Below, in pieces: positions 46,057 to 55,310 of a stretch of 64,000 nt of DNA. The position numbers and the translations under genes are program-made. The DNA comes from Acidobacteriota bacterium. GTDB lineage: Bacteria; Acidobacteriota; Terriglobia; UBA7540. A model generated the notes under the pieces. That model saw only the letters and a list, made by a program, of their open reading frames with translations. It searched no databases and was not told the DNA's origin. The stretch spans positions 310,001 through 374,000 of the forward strand of contig SCRD01000012.1 of NCBI GenBank assembly GCA_004298155.1. The letters are read 5' to 3'. Each line of letters starts with the position of its first letter. Position 1 is the first letter of the stretch.

Positions 46057-46701
46057 TCACGATTGATGTTCGGGATGAGTGCATGCCCCCGGGAACGACA
46101 TGTTGTAAGTATCTCCCTGGTATTGCAATTCCTGGTCGAGGCCGATTTTGGAGGTGTAGTATCCGAAGATTGTCAATCCTTTAATAAAACTGAAAGCTTT
46201 CACGCCGGCCTCATCTTCCGGCCGTGCCTTCGCGGGATCGGCAAGAGGTTTCAGCAAGTCCGTCTGCTGGGCCTCGTTGAGGCTGACAAACGGTTTGTTG
46301 TGCAATGCCAGGCTGCGGCCATCGAACCATGCCAGTGCCTGGATGATTTCCTGCTGATTTTCAGAGCTCTCTTCGTTGTACCTCAGGTCAAGGTAGCGGT
46401 TCACCAACGCAGACTTGGCGCCGGGCGTATCCGTCGTCGGGATGATCAGGTCAGTCAAGGCGATCAGCGTTTCGTTTTGGTGAGCGTCAAAGAACTGCGG
46501 CTTCCAGTTGGCGCCGGTCTGTGCGATGGCATCCACGTCGTCCGATGACATGTCCATGCCGGACATTGCAGGCATGGCTGTGCGAGCGGGTCGCGCCTGG
46601 CCAAGAATGGGCAGGGTCGTCAACCCACCTGCACCCATCACAAGAGTTTTCAGTACGCCGCGGCGCCCCTGGTTGGCTTCCTCTTCAATTCTTTTTGTCA
46701 T
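46057..46701 (-). CDS. Gluconate 2-dehydrogenase subunit 3-family protein, Tat-exported
   Basis: 214 residues from the ATG at 46701 (GGAGATG upstream). A twin-arginine signal (NQGRRGVLKTLVM) targets it to the periplasm. The mature part is the small helical subunit that accompanies GMC flavoproteins in membrane sugar dehydrogenases (LIALTDLIIPTTDTPGA motif), needed for their maturation or export. It lies 39 bases downstream of the GMC gene on the same strand, so the two are partners. No cytochrome c subunit gene is adjacent, so the electron acceptor is not known. Confidence 0.85.
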   Translation of the reverse strand: MTKRIEEEANQGRRGVLKTLVMGAGGLTTLPILGQARPARTAMPAMSGMDMSSDDVDAIAQTGANWKPQFFDAHQNETLIALTDLIIPTTDTPGAKSALVNRYLDLRYNEESSENQQEIIQALAWFDGRSLALHNKPFVSLNEAQQTDLLKPLADPAKARPEDEAGVKAFSFIKGLTIFGYYTSKIGLDQELQYQGDTYNMSFPGACTHPEHQS

Positions 46702-46740
46702 GGCTTTGCATCTCCGTTTCCCTGGATTCACTCGGTACCC

Positions 46741-48411
46741 TTAGCTGAGAGTCCCAGTGCGCATTTGTTCGGCGATATAGTCAGCGGTCCGCATGGAGAG
46801 CGCCAGAATCGTGAGCGTCGGGTTCTTCTCCGTCGAATTCACAAAGCACGAAGCGTCCGCCACAAAAAGGTTCTTGATGTCATGCGACTGGTTGAACTTG
46901 TTCAGGTATGATGTTTTCGGGTCGTCCCCCATGCGCGCTGTCCCGGCCGAATGGATGCTCCAACCGGGCTGCAAGGGCGTAGTCCGCTCGCCGATGATCT
47001 CGATCCCTGCCCTTTCAAACATCTCCCGCTGGGCGTCGTTGGCATCCCGGGCCATGGCCAGTTCGTTCGGTCCCCATTCCACTCCAAACTTGAGGACGGG
47101 AATGCCCCAGGCATCGTGGACCACGGGATCGATCTCTACGTGATTTTCCGCCCGCGGCACGACTTCGCCGAATGATCCGATGCTGATCACCGTCGCATAG
47201 TATTTTTTTACTTCCTCTTTGAACTCGGCGCCAAAGCCGGGAATTTTGTTCGCAAAACCGGGGAACTCGCTGCTCCCCCCACCACCCTCGTATCCATACC
47301 CGCGCACAAAGTTCTTCTGCTTCTCTTTCAGGTTGCGGAAGCGTGGGATGTAGATGCCTCCACCCTCCGGGTGGGCGTCGCCGCCGCGGTTGGTGTTTCC
47401 TTTCAGCCTCGGTATGATCCCGGAAATGCTGCCGGCCATGATCTGCTCGCAAAAATATTTACCCAGCACGCCGCTGGAATTGCCCAGACCGTCGGGGTGA
47501 TCATCGCTCCGGGAGTTCAGAAGGATGCGCGTGGTGTCGAGCGTTCCCGCGCCCATCACGATCACTTTGCCGTAAACCTCTTCCACCTGGCGCGTGATGC
47601 GATCAATGAAAACCACGCTTTTCGCGCGATTCTCACTATCGGCAGTCACCTTCCAGACGACGGCGTTGGTGCGCGTGGTCAGGTTGCCCGTCTTTTCGGC
47701 AATCGGGAGCAACACGCCCGCCGAACTGAAAGAGGCAGAGACGTTGCAAACCCGCCCGCAGTGGCCGCACCAATGGCACGGAACGCGTCCGTGGAAACCC
47801 GGCTTGGTCACCGTCGCCGAGCGACCCTGAATGACAGGCCGGCCCCCAAATTTGCTCTCGATCTGCCCCTTGAATATGTTTTCCGCGCAGGTCAGCGGGA
47901 TCGGCGGAAGAAAATGGCTGTCTGGATTGTTCTCCAGGCGGTCCGTATGGCCGCAGACTCCAATCCAGTCTTCAACTTTGCTGTAATAGGGTTCAACGTC
48001 TTCGTAGGAAATAGGCCAATCAGAGCCGACACCGTCATGGCTGGCGGCTTTGAAATCCCGCGGGCTGAAACGGAGCGAAACGAGCCCCCAATGGAGCGTC
48101 TTGCCGCCGACGGCCTGCGCGCGAACCCACACAAACTTCTTGCCTGTGTAGGGATTTTCAAGCTCATTCACAAAGTGCTTTTTGTTCCACTCGTCGGCCG
48201 TATAGTTATAAATGGCCCGCTCTGAAGGGCGGATTTCGCCGCGAAATGGAAAATTGTACGGTTTCCGGTGATGCTCGAAATCCGTAGCGATATTGAACTT
48301 CGGTCCCCGCTCGAGCATGAGGACCTTAAGCCCTTTCAAGCACAGTTGCGTGGCCGCCATGCCCCCGGCGGCGCCTGATCCCACAACCACAACGTCATAC
48401 ACTTTGGCCAT
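46741..48411 (-). CDS. GMC-family FAD-dependent sugar oxidoreductase
   Basis: 556 residues. The N-terminal FAD Rossmann motif is GSGAAGG (11-17). A cysteine-rich CHWCGHCGRVC segment (near residue 220) recalls the iron-sulfur-like cluster motif of glucose/gluconate dehydrogenase large subunits. The catalytic His-containing motif SIHSAGTARMG and the C-terminal NPTLTILALS are typical. It lacks its own export signal and would be carried out with its Tat-bearing small partner. Probable substrates are glucosides or sugar derivatives oxidised at carbon 3 or 2. A TIM-barrel epimerase follows within 900 bases, a common companion in 3-keto-glycoside loci. Confidence 0.88.
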   Translation of the reverse strand: MAKVYDVVVVGSGAAGGMAATQLCLKGLKVLMLERGPKFNIATDFEHHRKPYNFPFRGEIRPSERAIYNYTADEWNKKHFVNELENPYTGKKFVWVRAQAVGGKTLHWGLVSLRFSPRDFKAASHDGVGSDWPISYEDVEPYYSKVEDWIGVCGHTDRLENNPDSHFLPPIPLTCAENIFKGQIESKFGGRPVIQGRSATVTKPGFHGRVPCHWCGHCGRVCNVSASFSSAGVLLPIAEKTGNLTTRTNAVVWKVTADSENRAKSVVFIDRITRQVEEVYGKVIVMGAGTLDTTRILLNSRSDDHPDGLGNSSGVLGKYFCEQIMAGSISGIIPRLKGNTNRGGDAHPEGGGIYIPRFRNLKEKQKNFVRGYGYEGGGGSSEFPGFANKIPGFGAEFKEEVKKYYATVISIGSFGEVVPRAENHVEIDPVVHDAWGIPVLKFGVEWGPNELAMARDANDAQREMFERAGIEIIGERTTPLQPGWSIHSAGTARMGDDPKTSYLNKFNQSHDIKNLFVADASCFVNSTEKNPTLTILALSMRTADYIAEQMRTGTLS

Positions 48412-48594
48412 TCCGGCCTCCCCGTAAATATGAGTCTGTTACGTGCATATCAAAACTCTTTTATGAGTGCTCATACTTGCACCGGTCACGAATGCAAATG
48501 CCTCGTGAGCCTGCCGGCCATTCACAATATCGGGACAGCGCTCCAGCAAGCATCTGACCCAGGCGCCCATCAGTGTTTGGCGGACTGGCGCCGT

Positions 48595-49293
48595 TCAGCT
48601 CGAAGAGCAGAGCGCACCCAGCCACCGGGCTGCTTCTCTGTCCGCGGACAGAAGATGCGGCCCCAGCGGCGAACCTAGAAAGACCAGTGTTCCCTTCCCG
48701 ACACGGCGTTTGACGCCAACGGGCAAATCCTGAAACCAGGCAATGGCCTCTCCATTCTCCCCGCTGACTGGAACGACACGGCTGAAATCGCGAACCTTGG
48801 CAACAACAGGCCAGTGGTAATCAACATAGGGTGATTGTTTGAATGAGTCTGCGGAATCCCATAACCGGACGGGATCATGAAGGCACACTCCGAACAATGA
48901 CCTTATGACGCGCTTATGATTGCGAAACTCTTCAGGCTCCAGGAACGCTGCCCCGGTTTCATAGAGGACCTGTGCCCCATTCAGGAGTTGCCCGCTAAGG
49001 CTGACAAGCGTCGACGAATCTGTATCAACAGCCGCCGGCAAAATCACCATCCGCGCCGGCGCGAGTGCATTAATGGATGTCTGGCGCCAGGATACATTCA
49101 ATGAGGACAGCGCCGATGCATAACCAGCGGCGGACTCACGCAAAGGAGAAGCCGGGGCGGCATCTGCCAGAACGCATCCAGAAGGCAGCCGTACAATTTC
49201 AGGAAGAAGGCTGCCCAGGCCCGCTGCACCTGCAACTCCGGCCGCCGAAGCGCCCGCCGCACATCCCAGGAATCTACGCCGAGAGAAGGGCAT
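48595..49293 (-). CDS. Tat-exported protein of unknown function
   Basis: 232 residues from the ATG at 49293, one base after the stop of the upstream epimerase gene, so the two are cotranscribed. The start PFSRRRFLG is a clear twin-arginine signal with a long alanine-rich hydrophobic stretch. The mature part has strands such as PARMVILPA and KGTLVFLGSPLGPHLL, which recall glutamine-amidotransferase-like/ThuA-type folds, but no catalytic triad can be picked out. It is probably a periplasmic accessory of the sugar-oxidation genes next to it. Confidence 0.6.
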   Translation of the reverse strand: MPFSRRRFLGCAAGASAAGVAGAAGLGSLLPEIVRLPSGCVLADAAPASPLRESAAGYASALSSLNVSWRQTSINALAPARMVILPAAVDTDSSTLVSLSGQLLNGAQVLYETGAAFLEPEEFRNHKRVIRSLFGVCLHDPVRLWDSADSFKQSPYVDYHWPVVAKVRDFSRVVPVSGENGEAIAWFQDLPVGVKRRVGKGTLVFLGSPLGPHLLSADREAARWLGALCSSS

Positions 49294-49294
49294 T

Positions 49295-50131
49295 CTAAAC
49301 CTTGTTGGCAATCAGTCGGTCAATAGCCGCTGCCGTGTCATAGAACTGCTGGTCTTGCGCATAGTGGTACCGCCGTTCCATTTCAGCCACCAACCACCCG
49401 TCGTATCCCACTTTGGTCATGGCGGCCCGGATGGCTTTCCAGTTGTTGTCGCCGAGGAAAATATTGGTATAAACGCTATCGCCGCAGCGGCCGCGTTTTT
49501 TCATTGCGTCTTTCAGATGAATCCTCGTGATGCGAGGCCCCATCATTTCAATCCACTGCTCGGCAAATCCATCGTCATGGATGTTGCCGACGTCAAGATG
49601 GATGCCCACCGAAGGTTCGTTGATGTCTTTAAGGAAAAGAAGGAACTCGCGCGGCCCCATCAGGAAGCGCTGCTCGGAGTTGCAATTCTCGCAGCCGATC
49701 CTGACTCCAGCATGCGCGGCGTCCGGCGCAAGCATCTTTATGGCCTCTACCGTGCGATTGTAGACTTCGTTGTAAGGGACTTCCTCGGTCACCAGTCCCG
49801 CCACTACGAGGATGGCATCCGTGCCGAGGATCTGCGACGTTTCGATCTGACGCCTGACGATCCGAATTCCCTCTTCGCGCACTTTCGGGTCGCGAGCGGA
49901 TAGCGAGTATCTCCAGTGAAGGCCCGTTGAGACGTTTGAAACCACCAGCCCGGCGTTTTCAACCTTTCGGCGAAGTTCGCGAACCTCGGCGTCGGTAGTG
50001 CCCATCTGGAACCATGGGACGTCGCCCAGCCAAAGTTCAATCCCGTCGTATCCGGCTTTCTTGACTAGCTCCAGTCCCTGCTCGAAACTCCAGCCCTTCG
50101 GAATCTCGTTGTCCCCGATGGATTTTTTCAA
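49295..50131 (-). CDS. Sugar phosphate isomerase/epimerase (AP-endonuclease-2 TIM barrel)
   Basis: 278 residues from a TTG at 50131 (GGGG upstream), which gives the usual MKKSIG start of this family. The xylose-isomerase-like barrel shows FEQGLELVKKAGYDGIEL, GCENCNSEQRFL, GIHLDVGNIHDDG and RIHLKDAMK, whose Glu, Asp and His residues are the expected divalent-metal ligands. Members isomerise or epimerise sugars and keto-sugars or act on 3-keto-glycosides. It precedes the Tat protein and the GMC genes. No leader peptide is seen, so it works in the cytoplasm. Confidence 0.85.
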   Translation of the reverse strand: MKKSIGDNEIPKGWSFEQGLELVKKAGYDGIELWLGDVPWFQMGTTDAEVRELRRKVENAGLVVSNVSTGLHWRYSLSARDPKVREEGIRIVRRQIETSQILGTDAILVVAGLVTEEVPYNEVYNRTVEAIKMLAPDAAHAGVRIGCENCNSEQRFLMGPREFLLFLKDINEPSVGIHLDVGNIHDDGFAEQWIEMMGPRITRIHLKDAMKKRGRCGDSVYTNIFLGDNNWKAIRAAMTKVGYDGWLVAEMERRYHYAQDQQFYDTAAAIDRLIANKV

Positions 50132-50345: not shown

Positions 50346-50777
50346 TTACTCGCCCATCACCTGGACCATGTAGGTCCGAAGCAAGGGGCCATCGTATTCC
50401 ATGAAGTAGATGGTCTGCCGCGACCCGCGCACCATCTTGCCGCCCTCGATGGGGAATGAACAACTGATGCCGCCCAGGATGCTCTTCAGATGCGTTTCGG
50501 CGTTGAAGCCCAGCCGCCCGTCGTAGTCGAGATAACGTCGATGATGATAATTCTCGTCCTCAGGAAACAGCCGGCTGAAGTGCGTCAAAATGTCTTCTTC
50601 CAGGCACGGAATGCCTTCCGTCACCAGCAATCCCGAAGAGGTATGGCAGGTCATCACGTTCACGAGACCCTGCTTCACGCCGCTCTGCCGGATTACTTCA
50701 TCCACCTTTGGCGTGATATTGATGGCCTCTTCTGACTTCCGCGACTGGAGCTTAATCTTTTCAAGCTTGATAATCAT
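50346..50777 (-). CDS. YjbQ family protein (UPF0047)
   Basis: 143 residues, full length for the family. MTCHTSSGLLVTE contains the conserved His and Thr of the active-site pocket. ETHLKSILGG and the strand motif GGKMVRGSRQTIYFMEYD also match. YjbQ proteins have weak thiamine-phosphate synthase activity, but their physiological role is not settled. It lies 16 bases after the amidohydrolase gene on the same strand and probably shares its transcript. Confidence 0.93.
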   Translation of the reverse strand: MIIKLEKIKLQSRKSEEAINITPKVDEVIRQSGVKQGLVNVMTCHTSSGLLVTEGIPCLEEDILTHFSRLFPEDENYHHRRYLDYDGRLGFNAETHLKSILGGISCSFPIEGGKMVRGSRQTIYFMEYDGPLLRTYMVQVMGE

Positions 50778-50793
50778 GGCCTTTACCCGCCTT

Positions 50794-51639
50794 TTATTTG
50801 AGGCCCAGCAACCGGCCGGGATTCTCTTCGAAAACTTTCTTCAAACAGCCTTCCGTCAGCGCCAGTGTGCCGAGCGCGTGCACCATATTCTTGATTTCAA
50901 CCCGCGGGTAGTTTGAACCGAACACCATCCGGTTGCGCAGGCTGCGCTCCAGCACGGTGGTCGGGATCTGCTTCGAGAAGACAAACTGGTAAAACTCCTT
51001 CGGGCTGTCGTAGTAGAGGCACGAAGTGTCGAGATAAACGTTGGGATACTTCAGCGCCAGGGCGGTGGCTTCCCACACCCAGGGCCAGCCCCAATGCGCC
51101 AGCACAAAATTGAGCTTCTTAAAGCGCGCAATGGCTTCTTCCAGCAGCATAGGATGCCCGCGCTCAATCAGCGTGGAGGGCGCCCAGCTCATGCCAGTGT
51201 GGATTAGCACCGGAATATTCAATCCCAATGCTACTTCGTAAAGCTCGTAGACTTTGCTGTCACGCAATTCGAAGTCCTGGAGAGCGGCGTCGAGCTTCAG
51301 CCCCTTCAGACCCATTTTTCTAACGGCGTGTTCCAGTTCTTTTGCCGCACCCGTCTTCAGCGGATCCACGCTGGCAAAGCCGATGAAGCGGCCGCTGACC
51401 GCACATAGTTCCGCCACCTGCTCGTTTGAGCTGACGGCATCACCCCGGGCCCTCTCGCAATCAATCGGCAGCAACACCGCGCGGTCAATGCCCGCCACAT
51501 CCATCTGCAAATAGAAAGTTTCAAGCGGCTGGAAGTTGTTGCCAATCTGAAAAACGTCGCGCGACATGCGCGCGTAGTTGGGATACTTGTCCACCATTTC
51601 CTGAATCAGTACCGGGTGCGTATGGAAATCGATTCTCAT
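50794..51639 (-). CDS. Amidohydrolase-family metal hydrolase
   Basis: 281 residues, TIM-barrel amidohydrolase-2 type. DFHTHP (residues 4-9) is the first metal site, VLIHTGMSW and VLAHWGWP supply further His residues, and FGSNYPRVE gives the terminal Asp-equivalent position as GSN instead of GSD. The change from Asp to Asn in this last motif is unusual for a hydrolytic member. It overlaps the PfkB kinase gene by four bases and belongs to the same operon. The substrate is unknown. Confidence 0.84.
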   Translation of the reverse strand: MRIDFHTHPVLIQEMVDKYPNYARMSRDVFQIGNNFQPLETFYLQMDVAGIDRAVLLPIDCERARGDAVSSNEQVAELCAVSGRFIGFASVDPLKTGAAKELEHAVRKMGLKGLKLDAALQDFELRDSKVYELYEVALGLNIPVLIHTGMSWAPSTLIERGHPMLLEEAIARFKKLNFVLAHWGWPWVWEATALALKYPNVYLDTSCLYYDSPKEFYQFVFSKQIPTTVLERSLRNRMVFGSNYPRVEIKNMVHALGTLALTEGCLKKVFEENPGRLLGLK

Positions 51640-52580
51640 GCTGCCGCCTCATTCTTGTGTTTTTGCAGAAATTCCTGCCATTTCGACTTGTCGCGGAACG
51701 CCTCCGTACCGCCCGGCCGCGTGGTTGAAAACGCGCCTGCAAGATTGCCACCCGCCAGGCACGCCTGCAGGTCGGCACCGCGAACGTACCTGTCCAGGAA
51801 ACCAGCGTCGAAACTGTCACCCGCGCCCACAGGATCAACGGCGTCTACGGCATATCCAGCGTGCGTCCATTCCCGCTTGCCGCGGCGCGCCCGCGCGCCC
51901 TTTGCCCCAAGTTTGACGGCAACCATCTGCACCCGGCCCGCCAGTTTTTCCATGGCTGCTTCGAGGCCGCCTTCGCCCGCAATCTTCTCTGCCTCTCGTT
52001 CATTCACCAATAGAACATCCACAAAGGGGAGAACGTCCTCGAGGCCCTCCCAGCGGTCGTCCGGGTCGTCGTTTGTGTCAAGCGAGGTGCCGAGGCCAGC
52101 CCGCTTCATATGTTCAAACAGGTTCGGGATGCGCGGCCGCAGCGCGCGGTGCAGGTAAAACGAAGAAAGATGGAAGTGCTTGCCGGAACGGAGGTAATCA
52201 AGGTCAAGGTCATCGTATCCCATTTCAAACATCGCACCGGGATAGGTTAAAATTCGCCGGCTGCCAGTTCCTGTAACGATAACAGTCAACCCCGTCTTGG
52301 TTGCTCCCGCCACGCTTCGCACCCGGCTGACATCCACACCGCCAGACGCAAGCCTCTCCAGAGCGATCTCTCCCAGTGGATCGGCGCCAATACGCGAAAT
52401 GAAACCGACTTGGTTGCCGATCACCGCCAGATTGTGGGCAAATATGGCGGAAGAACTTCCCAGGGTCAGGGCAAGATCGCTGGCCAGAAGCTCCTTTTCT
52501 GGCTCCAGTTCGTCCGGCAAACCATAGAGGATCAGGTCAAGGTTCAGTTCGCCGGCCACCGTCACGTCGAATTGAGCCAT
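51636..52580 (-). CDS. PfkB-family carbohydrate kinase
   Basis: 314 residues, ribokinase fold. The signature PVGAGDSFDAGFLDRYV (near 255) holds the anion hole and the catalytic Asp. TVAGELNLDLILYGLPD begins the substrate domain and SLDTNDDPDDRW lies in the middle. It phosphorylates a sugar or sugar derivative with ATP. The upstream gene nine bases away is a SIS isomerase, and the downstream amidohydrolase overlaps. The SIS/PfkB pairing is like FrlB/FrlD of fructosamine breakdown. Confidence 0.9.
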   Translation of the reverse strand: MAQFDVTVAGELNLDLILYGLPDELEPEKELLASDLALTLGSSSAIFAHNLAVIGNQVGFISRIGADPLGEIALERLASGGVDVSRVRSVAGATKTGLTVIVTGTGSRRILTYPGAMFEMGYDDLDLDYLRSGKHFHLSSFYLHRALRPRIPNLFEHMKRAGLGTSLDTNDDPDDRWEGLEDVLPFVDVLLVNEREAEKIAGEGGLEAAMEKLAGRVQMVAVKLGAKGARARRGKREWTHAGYAVDAVDPVGAGDSFDAGFLDRYVRGADLQACLAGGNLAGAFSTTRPGGTEAFRDKSKWQEFLQKHKNEAAA

Positions 52581-52589
52581 CCTGAATCC

Positions 52590-53672
52590 CTATCCAGCCT
52601 TCCTCTTCAGCACAACCACGCGGCTCAAATGCCGAGGTTCGTCGGGATCAAACCCTCGCTTGAGTCCAAGGTATAGGCCTAATAGCTGCGCGGCCAGAAT
52701 GTGAGGCGCCAGGCGCGCCACTTCAGGAACGTCCAGTTGAAGTTCAACCAGCACGTCGGCGGCACTGCGAACTTTGTCATTCGCGCGGTTGGTAATCACC
52801 AGTGTCTTGCCGCCCAGTTCCTTCATCTCTTCCAGCACTTCCTGCTCGGAAGTTCCAGTGCTCTCAGCGAGAAAGAAAGTCAGCAGCGTTTGCGGGCTCA
52901 CAATCGATTTTGGGCCGTGGCGAAATTCCAACGTATGAAAAACCTGCGCATAAGAGCAGGACATTTCTGTGACCTTTAACTGCCCTTCTGACGCGATCCC
53001 GAAAAACGGCCCTTGCCCCATAAAAACATAGTCCGCAAATTCGTTGGAGCTCGCAAACTTTTCAATGCACGGCTGCAACCTTCCCAGCGCGCGCTGTGCC
53101 TGTCCCGGCATCTGCTTTAGCGCCTGCAGAAAATCCTTGCGCCCGCCGGCCCAGCCGGCCAGCGCCTGTAGGCCCAGAAGCATCGTGCTGAACGAACGCG
53201 TCATCACGGTGCTCAACTCGTCAGCCGCTGGTAGCAGCAGGGTGGAGGTCACCCGCTTTTCAAGATCCTTTCCCGTTGCGCAGCTAACCGCAAGTGTCCG
53301 GATGCCCCGTTCCTTCTCCAGATAATCAGCCGCCATCAGCATCTCGGTCGTGTGCCCCGAGCGCGAAATCAGGACGGGCTGGCACTTGCCATTTCCCAGC
53401 ACATGATCCGGATAAAACAGGAGTTCAGACGCCGGCACAGCCTTTGCCCGTTGTCCTGTGACGGCAGTCCAACTCCACGCGGCGGTCTGCGCCACGTAGT
53501 AGCTTGACCCACAACCAACAAAAATCCACTCATCAGCCTTATCCAGCGGCCTCAGGACTTCCTCATAGCGGCCGTGCTCTTCAAGTTCCTGCAGAGTAGC
53601 CGCCCAGACGCCGGGCTCTGACATGATCTCTGCGTAACTTCGATGCCCTCGGCCCTCTAACGTGTCGTTCAC
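52590..53672 (-). CDS. SIS-domain sugar isomerase/deglycase (GlmS/FrlB/AgaS-like)
   Basis: 360 residues with two SIS domains. The first (about 45-180) has FVGCGSSYYVA and ISRSGHTTEM, phosphate-sugar loop motifs. The second (about 195-350) has FMGQGPFFGIASEGQLKVTEMS and the HTLEFRHGPKS loop typical of GlmS-like isomerases. No glutaminase domain is attached. Such stand-alone proteins deaminate or deglycate amino-sugar phosphates. It is the first gene of the run SIS-PfkB-amidohydrolase-YjbQ. The ATG at 53672 lies after an AGGAGG-like stretch. Confidence 0.88.
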   Translation of the reverse strand: MNDTLEGRGHRSYAEIMSEPGVWAATLQELEEHGRYEEVLRPLDKADEWIFVGCGSSYYVAQTAAWSWTAVTGQRAKAVPASELLFYPDHVLGNGKCQPVLISRSGHTTEMLMAADYLEKERGIRTLAVSCATGKDLEKRVTSTLLLPAADELSTVMTRSFSTMLLGLQALAGWAGGRKDFLQALKQMPGQAQRALGRLQPCIEKFASSNEFADYVFMGQGPFFGIASEGQLKVTEMSCSYAQVFHTLEFRHGPKSIVSPQTLLTFFLAESTGTSEQEVLEEMKELGGKTLVITNRANDKVRSAADVLVELQLDVPEVARLAPHILAAQLLGLYLGLKRGFDPDEPRHLSRVVVLKRKAG

Positions 53673-53944
53673 TCTACTGCCTCCTTCAAGCCTATAAAGA
53701 CTTACAATTCATCTGGAGTACACTTTTGATGTGGGAGCCTTGCAGCAACGAGCGGCTGCAAGTTACCCGGATTACGGTAGGTTTCTTTTTACTACGTTTT
53801 CCTTTCGAATGTCAAAGCGTTTTGGGCTTCTCACCGTCCCACACGGACCGGTTTCACGCAGGCATAAAAGCCCGAACATTCTTCGCGCAACGCGAGAGTC
53901 CCGTATTCAAACACACTGTGATAGTCCGGTGTCGGAACTCATTG

Positions 53945-55036
53945 TCAGTGTCCCCGGTTAAGCCAAGGGGTTACTGGCACCTGGCCAGGATTCCCGGGCT
54001 TGTAAGGCCAGTTGATGCGCTTGCCAGTTGCAGCCGATTCATAGGCAGCGTAAATAATCTCCAGCGTTGCACGCCCGTCTTCTCCGGTTTCTATTGGTTC
54101 CACTTCACCCAGGACCGCTCGCGTGAAGTGCCGCATCTCGTGCGGAAAGCCGTAAAGGAAGGCTTCCTCAAACACCGTAAAAGTCCAGCCTTTTGTTTCG
54201 CCAGCCTTTTCCACGGCATACCCATAGCCTCGCTTACTGTACGTTTCCATTGAACTGCCGCGAAGCAGATCACAATGGACGACGCCTTCGGTCCCGTAAA
54301 GATCGGCGCGATCATCCATGCCTCCCAGGCACGCCCAGCTGTCTTCAATCACGGCAATGCCGCCGTTTTCGAATTCAACGATCACCAGAGAATTGTCATC
54401 GCCCTTTGTTCTCCCTTTGTGATAAACGAGCTGGCAGTGGGCGGTAACACTTTTGACCTTTGGCTTACCATACACCCAGCGGGTCCATTCGATCCCATGG
54501 CAACCCATATCCATCAGCGCTCCGCCGCCTGAGCGATTGACATCGTAGAACCAGTCCGAGTGCGGCCCGGAGTGCTTTTCACTCTGTTTGGCCATGTAAA
54601 GATCGCCAATGGCCCTCTCATCCACCAGGTGCTTGGCACGAGCGTACTTGGGTGAGAAGCAGATCGTTTCTGCGTACATGAGCTTGACTTTGTGCTTCTC
54701 GCACGCGGCAATCATGGCGTCGGCGTCTTCCAGCGTGTGGGCGATAGGTTTCTCAAGGATGATGTGCTTGCCTGCTTCGGCCGCGGCGACAACGACTTCG
54801 CGGTGCAAATCATTGGGAATGCCCACTACCACCACGTCCACGTCTTTGCGCTCAATGAGCTTCCGGTAATCGGTCACTGCCAGAGGTATATTCCACTTGC
54901 GGGCAAATTCGTCAACGTGCTTTTTGTTAGGAGAGCACGCTGCAACAAGCTGTGCCTCCTTTACCTCCTGAAAAGCTTCCGCATGAAGGTTTGAAACAAA
55001 AGCCGACCCGATCACACCCGCCCTCACCTTGTCCAT
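53945..55036 (-). CDS. Gfo/Idh/MocA-family oxidoreductase
   Basis: 363 residues from the ATG at 55036, with GGAAGGAG at good spacing; the longer frame upstream is unsupported. The N-terminal Rossmann domain (AGVIGSAFVSNLHAEAF) binds NAD(P), and ILEKPIAHT holds the conserved EKP lysine. The C-terminal part has GGGALMDMGCHGIEW, with the substrate-facing His. Members oxidise or reduce sugar carbons, including 3-keto sugars and inositols. It is transcribed away from the second PfkB gene, whose start lies 275 bases off. Confidence 0.9.
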   Translation of the reverse strand: MDKVRAGVIGSAFVSNLHAEAFQEVKEAQLVAACSPNKKHVDEFARKWNIPLAVTDYRKLIERKDVDVVVVGIPNDLHREVVVAAAEAGKHIILEKPIAHTLEDADAMIAACEKHKVKLMYAETICFSPKYARAKHLVDERAIGDLYMAKQSEKHSGPHSDWFYDVNRSGGGALMDMGCHGIEWTRWVYGKPKVKSVTAHCQLVYHKGRTKGDDNSLVIVEFENGGIAVIEDSWACLGGMDDRADLYGTEGVVHCDLLRGSSMETYSKRGYGYAVEKAGETKGWTFTVFEEAFLYGFPHEMRHFTRAVLGEVEPIETGEDGRATLEIIYAAYESAATGKRINWPYKPGNPGQVPVTPWLNRGH

Positions 55037-55310
55037 CATCGCTCCTTCCAACGAATTGGGTTTTCGTGCCCCTGATTCTCCTGTGTGGGACAACAGGCTT
55101 CTTTTGACCCCTGCAGGCAGCCTTTCAAGATACCACAAGCCCGGCTGAACTCGGATTTCAAATCGTATCCATAGACTCCTGAAATGAAGTTGCGAAATAA
55201 TAGAAAGCCTCCCGCATAGCAACACACAGAACCTCTTCGTCAAAATTTTGTTGCAGGAGTGAGACAATCGGCGATAGCATCCAATGCTTTGTTCTTACCG
55301 GAGAAACCAG

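Follow-up and report, generated by a model that had tools for sequence, protein, structure and literature searches.

Four described systems bear on the operon analysed here, which lies in a stretch of 64,000 nucleotides from an Acidobacteriota bacterium (GCA_004298155.1, contig SCRD01000012.1, positions 310,001 to 374,000; the whole stretch is called the window) and encodes a SIS protein, a PfkB-family sugar kinase, an Amidohydro_2 protein, hereafter the amidohydrolase, and a YjbQ protein. The Aga pathway of E. coli (agaR, kbaZ, agaS, kbaY) serves N-acetylgalactosamine and galactosamine, and AgaS is proposed to be the galactosamine-6-phosphate deaminase/isomerase of E. coli (PMC3668189; PMC12118421). 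GlmD and the solved chain 1j5x represent the stand-alone glucosamine-6-phosphate deaminases. The Frl and Gfr systems (E. coli frlABCDR; Salmonella gfr) handle fructosamines, Frl being built on a kinase and a SIS protein. Finally, the YjbQ/UPF0047 family is named by its curated model, TIGR00149, solely by secondary thiamine-phosphate synthase activity.

The window operon shares the kinase and SIS plan of Frl, but no permease is found among its four genes. Its SIS protein stands on the side of AgaS, GlmD and GlmS, but the operon holds PfkB, amidohydrolase and YjbQ genes, unlike the Aga pathway. An earlier note on this DNA had likened it to fructosamine catabolism. The core pathway is most likely a variant of the known amino-sugar kind. 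As for the operon as a whole, we favour, with a probability of roughly 0.55, a role in the catabolism of an amino sugar or N-substituted amino sugar, in which kinase, SIS protein, amidohydrolase and YjbQ all have a part.

A tightly packed operon that recurs in related genomes

All four genes given in the earlier note for positions 50346-53672 were confirmed, and they are closely spaced. All are on the minus strand: the SIS gene (53672-52590, 360 amino acids, GTG start; Pfam SIS, 8.9e-21), the PfkB gene (52580-51636, 314 amino acids; Pfam PfkB, 5.7e-45), the amidohydrolase gene (51639-50794, 281 amino acids; Pfam Amidohydro_2, 3.5e-40, 139 bits for a cut-off of 26.4) and the YjbQ gene (50777-50346, 143 amino acids; Pfam UPF0047, 1.8e-28). 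The successive gaps are 9, -4 and 16 bp, the amidohydrolase gene overlapping the PfkB gene by 4 bp.

The amidohydrolase was matched at E <= 1e-30 in 21 of 101 genomes, namely the window's own and its relatives (G and L numbers below label genomes and loci). Twenty of these matches are close (55 to 100% identity) and all 20 belong to the window's family; the remaining one (G410, L079; 35% identity, YjbQ not found) was not counted among the 20 loci. At 19 of the 20 loci, YjbQ follows directly downstream on the same strand, 4 to 183 bp from the amidohydrolase match, and the other locus is cut off by its contig end 96 bp past the amidohydrolase. The SIS gene is upstream on the same strand at 16 loci, with PfkB in between at 14 of them; PfkB occurs without SIS at L074, and on the opposite strand at L077 and L078. 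L066 has as neighbours two zinc alcohol dehydrogenases and an FGGY kinase of rhamnulokinase-like type (378 bits for a cut-off of 528). The gene order is thus seen again in other genomes and is not due to chance; the earlier note had named a failure to recur as something that would count against its reading.

Presence of the genes was then compared over 39 genomes of the family. The SIS protein (E <= 1e-60) was found in 21, which include all 20 genomes with the amidohydrolase; one genome (G404, 66% complete) had SIS without amidohydrolase, and 18 had neither (Fisher p = 3e-10, in a test that ignores phylogeny and in which joint absence may reflect one missing contig where the genes adjoin). The two genes lie on different contigs in four genomes (G399, G408, G426 and G433), so that their co-occurrence is more than adjacency. 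Across 12 loci of the family, the four proteins give concordant distance matrices (r = 0.79 to 0.87, reached by none of 2000 permutations), as expected of genes inherited together. Amidohydrolase and YjbQ thus form a conserved, co-inherited module. At 11 loci, identity to the window proteins is 65 to 93% for the amidohydrolase, 76 to 94% for YjbQ, 50 to 90% for SIS and 58 to 84% for PfkB.

The SIS protein and its probable amino-sugar context

Against NCBIfam models, the window SIS protein scored 130.1 bits for GlmD, 127 for GlmS, 101.8 for AgaS, 60 for NagB-II and 28 for FrlB. The closest solved chain was 1j5x, named glucosamine-6-phosphate deaminase (8.9e-41), which we take to be TM0813; the stand-alone glucosamine-6-phosphate deaminases thus give the best match both by model and by solved chain. 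A tree of 27 SIS proteins was built, including 10 of the 21 from the window's family and five of the six from another Acidobacteriota family that carries the same SIS, here called the second family (L002, represented by a fragment of 5 residues, was omitted). One split, with support 100/97, separates FrlB, 2a3n and the Niallia, E. faecium and G104 proteins from GlmS, AgaS, 2dec, 1j5x, the Deinococcus, Thermus and Halomontanus proteins and all 15 Acidobacteriota SIS proteins of the tree, although the program warned of long branches meeting on the split edge and within the FrlB side. The inner order of the GlmS/AgaS/GlmD group, where the window protein takes no fixed place, was not relied on. 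The C-terminal motif of the window protein is PRxLSRVV-like, as opposed to the RRYY of the FrlB side, where G104 is the one row out of five that lacks it. The split, the model scores and the motif, taken together, assign the window SIS to the amino-sugar phosphate enzymes of the GlmS/AgaS/GlmD side, not to the FrlB deglycases. Glu and His of its EMS...EFRHGP segment, presumably catalytic, align with Glu and His of GlmS; FrlB-type proteins carry both too.

The earlier note had taken the SIS protein and the kinase for an FrlB/FrlD pair. In the comparison with FrlB, AgaS and GlmS, the SIS protein grouped instead with GlmS-like enzymes, in the broad sense of that clade, and the kinase scored 86.3 bits with the FrlD model, far below its cut-off of 247. 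On the SIS tree and these model scores, membership of the operon among Frl operons was rejected. Among the references compared, the kinase is nearest to that of G104, a genome of another Acidobacteriota family (32.8% identity, 8e-40), whose cluster has an FrlB-like SIS.

Genes around the related loci support an amino-sugar substrate, without naming one. In the window's family, 11 of the 16 SIS-bearing loci have a DeoR-family gene upstream of it, with at least 64% identity to the copy of L062. This copy, the only one of the family scanned singly, passes the AgaR cut-off of 260 (264.5), and the L013 copy passes it too (275.6). Each of 18 genomes searched has a single AgaR above the cut-off; among 14 controls, five had a match and one was over the cut-off. 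AgaR adjoins SIS in nine of the 12 genomes of the window's family that were among these 18. A TTTCGAA-type element near 53798, upstream of the window SIS, is similar to an element that precedes AgaR in L063. We dropped the proposal that it is an AgaR operator: at width 16 it scored 34.7 against 20.5 to 21.2 for plain shuffles, a margin inflated by the relatedness of the sequences.

The SIS of the second family was found in six of 396 genomes drawn from the phylum, with PfkB adjacent in five. Its loci carry AgaR-like genes, sugar porters in some cases and, in four, a different Amidohydro_2 protein that keeps the Asp of the last metal motif in all three copies aligned. Four of these six genomes had AgaZ over the cut-off, two of them at no more than 5 kb from SIS, and AgaZ/GatZ proteins of the SIS-PfkB clusters L015 and L016 scored 620.8 and 646.3 bits (cut-off 568.8). 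A Deinococcus cluster, among the nearest plasmid relatives, encodes an annotated polygalactosaminidase, SIS, a class II aldolase and PfkB. Near some loci of the window's family are melibiase-like glycosidases, a glycoside hydrolase family 2 protein that includes an exo-glucosaminidase Ig domain and, judged solely by eye and by similarity, TonB-type receptors.

The amidohydrolase-YjbQ pair and neighbouring genes

The last metal motif of the window amidohydrolase reads GSN instead of GSD, as the earlier note had remarked, and in the alignment Asn replaces Asp in all 20 copies of the family. This Asp is catalytic in Amidohydro_2 hydrolases. The position is Asn in Niallia, Asp in G104 and Ala (GSA) in E. 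faecium. Four His and a Lys are retained in the 11 copies of the family aligned, and the amidohydrolase is better conserved than SIS or PfkB; for these reasons we read its site as probably active, in an altered form.

The window YjbQ passes the TIGR00149 cut-off (104.9 bits for 67.75), and belongs to a subfamily marked by an HxRxLxxxG insertion. This insertion was present in all 14 rows of the module's YjbQ group and in none of the 16 others in the alignment used for the YjbQ tree, for which 11 of the 19 module copies of the window's family were taken (the amidohydrolase tree used 11 of 20). Members of the subfamily usually come in addition to other YjbQ copies: two to four family members were found in 19 of the 20 genomes with the amidohydrolase, and one in the remaining genome. 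Six further copies from the window's family, once aligned, all proved to be without the insertion. The YjbQ/UPF0047 family was present in 10 of 14 control genomes, and the six genomes of the second family had one copy or none.

Outside the window's family, the amidohydrolase was found at E <= 1e-30 in four further genomes of the 396: in G104, together with YjbQ, and in three distant genomes, where no YjbQ match was found in the stretches examined around it. In G104 the order is PfkB, amidohydrolase (GSD), YjbQ, a short-chain dehydrogenase/reductase and SIS, the last scoring 109.7 bits for FrlB (cut-off 430). The Niallia taxi plasmid pMEGANia (L031) has SIS, amidohydrolase (GSN), YjbQ and PfkB, with an amino-acid-type ABC transporter, recognised by eye, further on. 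Its PfkB passes the FrlD cut-off (313.6 for 247); its SIS is below that of FrlB (77.8 for 430), and matches 2a3n (4.8e-76), which we take to be STM4540, a Gfr protein of Salmonella, and 3eua, named putative fructose-aminoacid-6-phosphate deglycase (6.8e-59). Plasmid 2 of Enterococcus faecium DO (L057) carries amidohydrolase, YjbQ, an amino acid permease, GntR, frlD, GntR and SIS. Here again the kinase passes the FrlD cut-off (295.9) and the SIS does not pass that of FrlB (42.6), pairing with 2a3n in the tree (98/94). This cluster is rare: by near match, it occurs in one of 72,556 plasmid records. The earlier note had held amidohydrolase and YjbQ to be foreign to known Frl operons, which stands for frl of E. 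coli K-12, but not for the Niallia and E. faecium clusters.

The amidohydrolases of the window's family, Niallia, E. faecium and G104 form one tree group (97/96), and so do their YjbQ proteins (98/98). By these trees, the two proteins are a specialised pair, anciently shared or moved between phyla. The pair is found with SIS proteins of the amino-sugar type and of the deglycase clade, and thus appears to serve kinase/SIS pathways of both types. No such amidohydrolase stood beside the other plasmid YjbQ matches examined. Seven plasmid relatives of the amidohydrolase (L032-L035 and L080-L082; 28.6 to 32.2% identity) were rejected as members, all falling outside the module's tree group; the four with annotation sit among acyl-CoA, amide, purine or phenylacetate genes, the other three records being without annotation there.

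Other members of both families were seen in further settings. Another Amidohydro_2 subfamily, whose motif reads GTD, was seen repeatedly next to SIS loci of the second family and next to some loci of the window's family (L063:1204-2406; L016:10354-11400). YjbQ-family proteins occur in other sugar operons (L108, L110 and L111): with a phosphotransferase system, a class II aldolase and triose-phosphate isomerase in E. faecium pQL50 and L. paracasei pLPCN-1, and in Shinella in the order short-chain dehydrogenase/reductase, TIM barrel, triose-phosphate isomerase, YjbQ, FGGY kinase. In Thiodictyon pTs485 (L058:5001-6736), a YjbQ gene overlaps that of a RuBisCO-like protein.

Two genes flank the window operon on the same strand. 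Upstream, a Gfo/Idh/MocA oxidoreductase (53945-55267, an open reading frame with a TTG start, an ATG near 55045 being likelier by eye) was found, among 20 related loci, in the window's genus only. Downstream, an AP_endonuc_2 TIM barrel (50131-49295) does exist, as the earlier note had said in calling it FrlC-like and just downstream. It begins 214 bp from YjbQ, was found at four of the 20 loci (the window, L060, L062 and L073; several loci reach contig edges), and resembles FrlC weakly (37.4 bits for a cut-off of 305; 17% identity to FrlC of E. coli). Given the gap and the four loci, we rejected it as a core member of the operon. Further downstream (46057-49311) are a GMC oxidoreductase, a short open reading frame resembling gluconate dehydrogenase subunit 3 by eye, and one without Pfam match. 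Together with the TIM barrel, this downstream set, found at few related loci, is reminiscent of glycoside 3-oxidation sets. On a Thermus plasmid (L085), too, genes for a GMC and for gluconate 2-dehydrogenase subunit 3 lie close to the SIS gene. About 50 kb from the window operon is another SIS, distantly related (25% identity), with Gfo/Idh-like genes on its flanks (G000:C12:414268-415158, L003).

Proposed pathway and its alternatives

In the catabolic scheme that we favour, the amino sugar would be released by glycosidases and imported, PfkB would phosphorylate it at C6, and the SIS protein, of the AgaS/GlmD class, would remove the amine and isomerise the product to a ketose 6-phosphate, which would enter glycolysis. 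Amidohydrolase and YjbQ may act on the same amino-sugar phosphate intermediate or on its N-substituent, most likely ahead of the SIS step or alongside it. We infer this role because the pair also accompanies FrlD-type kinases and deglycases, whose intermediates would be of the same chemical class (1-amino-1-deoxyketose or 2-amino-2-deoxyaldose 6-phosphates); the substrate and the order of the steps are likewise deduced from sequence. That the core pathway handles an amino sugar rather than a fructosamine we hold to be probable. We advance more tentatively, at somewhat less than even odds, that this YjbQ subfamily and the Asn-type Amidohydro_2 carry out a two-enzyme step, as yet undescribed, in the breakdown of N-substituted amino sugars, and that they do so with amino-sugar isomerases and Amadori/Heyns deglycases alike in at least two phyla.

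Several observations weigh against the favoured scheme. The window SIS falls below every NCBIfam cut-off (580 for GlmD, NF041128; 529.2 for the AgaS family; 430 for FrlB), and its kinase passes none among the 20 NCBIfam families scanned. The window's genus has its AgaR away from the operon, at G000:C18:297525, where no sugar gene was recognised by eye next to it. AgaZ was not found at E <= 1e-30 in any of the 20 genomes of the family (AgaY/KbaY were not searched for), so that tagatose 6-phosphate would have to be handled there by a different kinase and aldolase. At L064:8868-11322 and L065:80-2466, SIS is followed directly by amidohydrolase and YjbQ, with no PfkB in the operon. The co-occurrence test is subject to the reservations given with it, and outside the Acidobacteriota the module is known from the two plasmid records of Niallia taxi and E. 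faecium.

True Amadori catabolism, with PfkB as fructosamine 6-kinase and SIS as deglycase, would fit the pair's place beside FrlD kinases in the two plasmid clusters and the proximity of the window kinase to that of G104. It appears unlikely, given the tree split that parts the SIS protein from FrlB, 2a3n and the Niallia, E. faecium and G104 proteins, the low FrlB and FrlD scores and the AgaR-class regulator of the relatives. The fructosamine reading of the earlier note is thus partly supported. The SIS tree and the AgaR and AgaZ of related genomes point to amino sugars. The substrate may nevertheless be akin to Amadori or Heyns compounds, since in Niallia and E. faecium the pair is accompanied by kinases of the FrlD class and SIS proteins of the deglycase clade, and, among the references compared, the kinase of G104, whose SIS is FrlB-like, is the closest to that of the window. 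If the SIS protein were a Heyns-compound deglycase splitting N-substituted glucosamine 6-phosphates at the 2-amino linkage, this would explain the amino-sugar type of its fold as well as partner genes of the Frl type. The combination of a GlmD-like SIS with a module common to deglycase clusters, such as that of Niallia with its resemblance to 2a3n and 3eua, speaks for this, and we count in its favour that Salmonella Gfr handles fructoselysine and glucoselysine (PMC12675984). As 2a3n lies in the other SIS group, we regard it as improbable nonetheless.

Other explanations concern the pair itself. Amidohydrolase and YjbQ might be damage-control enzymes that clear side products of reactive amino-sugar phosphates, off the main route; such a role would account for their presence beside two kinds of SIS, and for their retention where the operon lacks PfkB (L064, L065) or SIS is elsewhere (the four genomes with separate contigs). 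We give it a minor chance, as none of the six second-family genomes with this SIS has the amidohydrolase at E <= 1e-30, and it is thus not generally needed. Alternatively, the amidohydrolase might be catalytically dead or a binding protein, YjbQ working alone. The uniform Asn for Asp in the family points that way, as do Gln for a metal-motif His in Niallia and, in the E. faecium frame (partial, its 5' part absent), Gln for His, Ala for Asp and Ala for Lys. This is doubtful, however, in view of the retained His and Lys residues, the Asp kept in G104 and the stronger conservation of the amidohydrolase relative to SIS and PfkB. A replacement for the deacetylases NagA or AgaA is also unlikely: a NagA match was present elsewhere in 22 of 26 genomes, over the cut-off in 19, and fructosamine clusters should not need a deacetylase. 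In the four genomes without a NagA match, that role may still apply.

In the titles and abstract beginnings of the open-access literature, no paper was found that links YjbQ to such kinase/SIS operons, and within the reach of this search the shared amidohydrolase-YjbQ module seems to be undescribed. The reading of the operon is corrected from fructosamine towards amino sugar. One YjbQ subfamily goes with a single amidohydrolase and, in two phyla, with sugar pathways of the kinase/SIS type, which provides a concrete substrate class to examine. If the two-enzyme step is true, it would give part of the UPF0047 family a role in a pathway.

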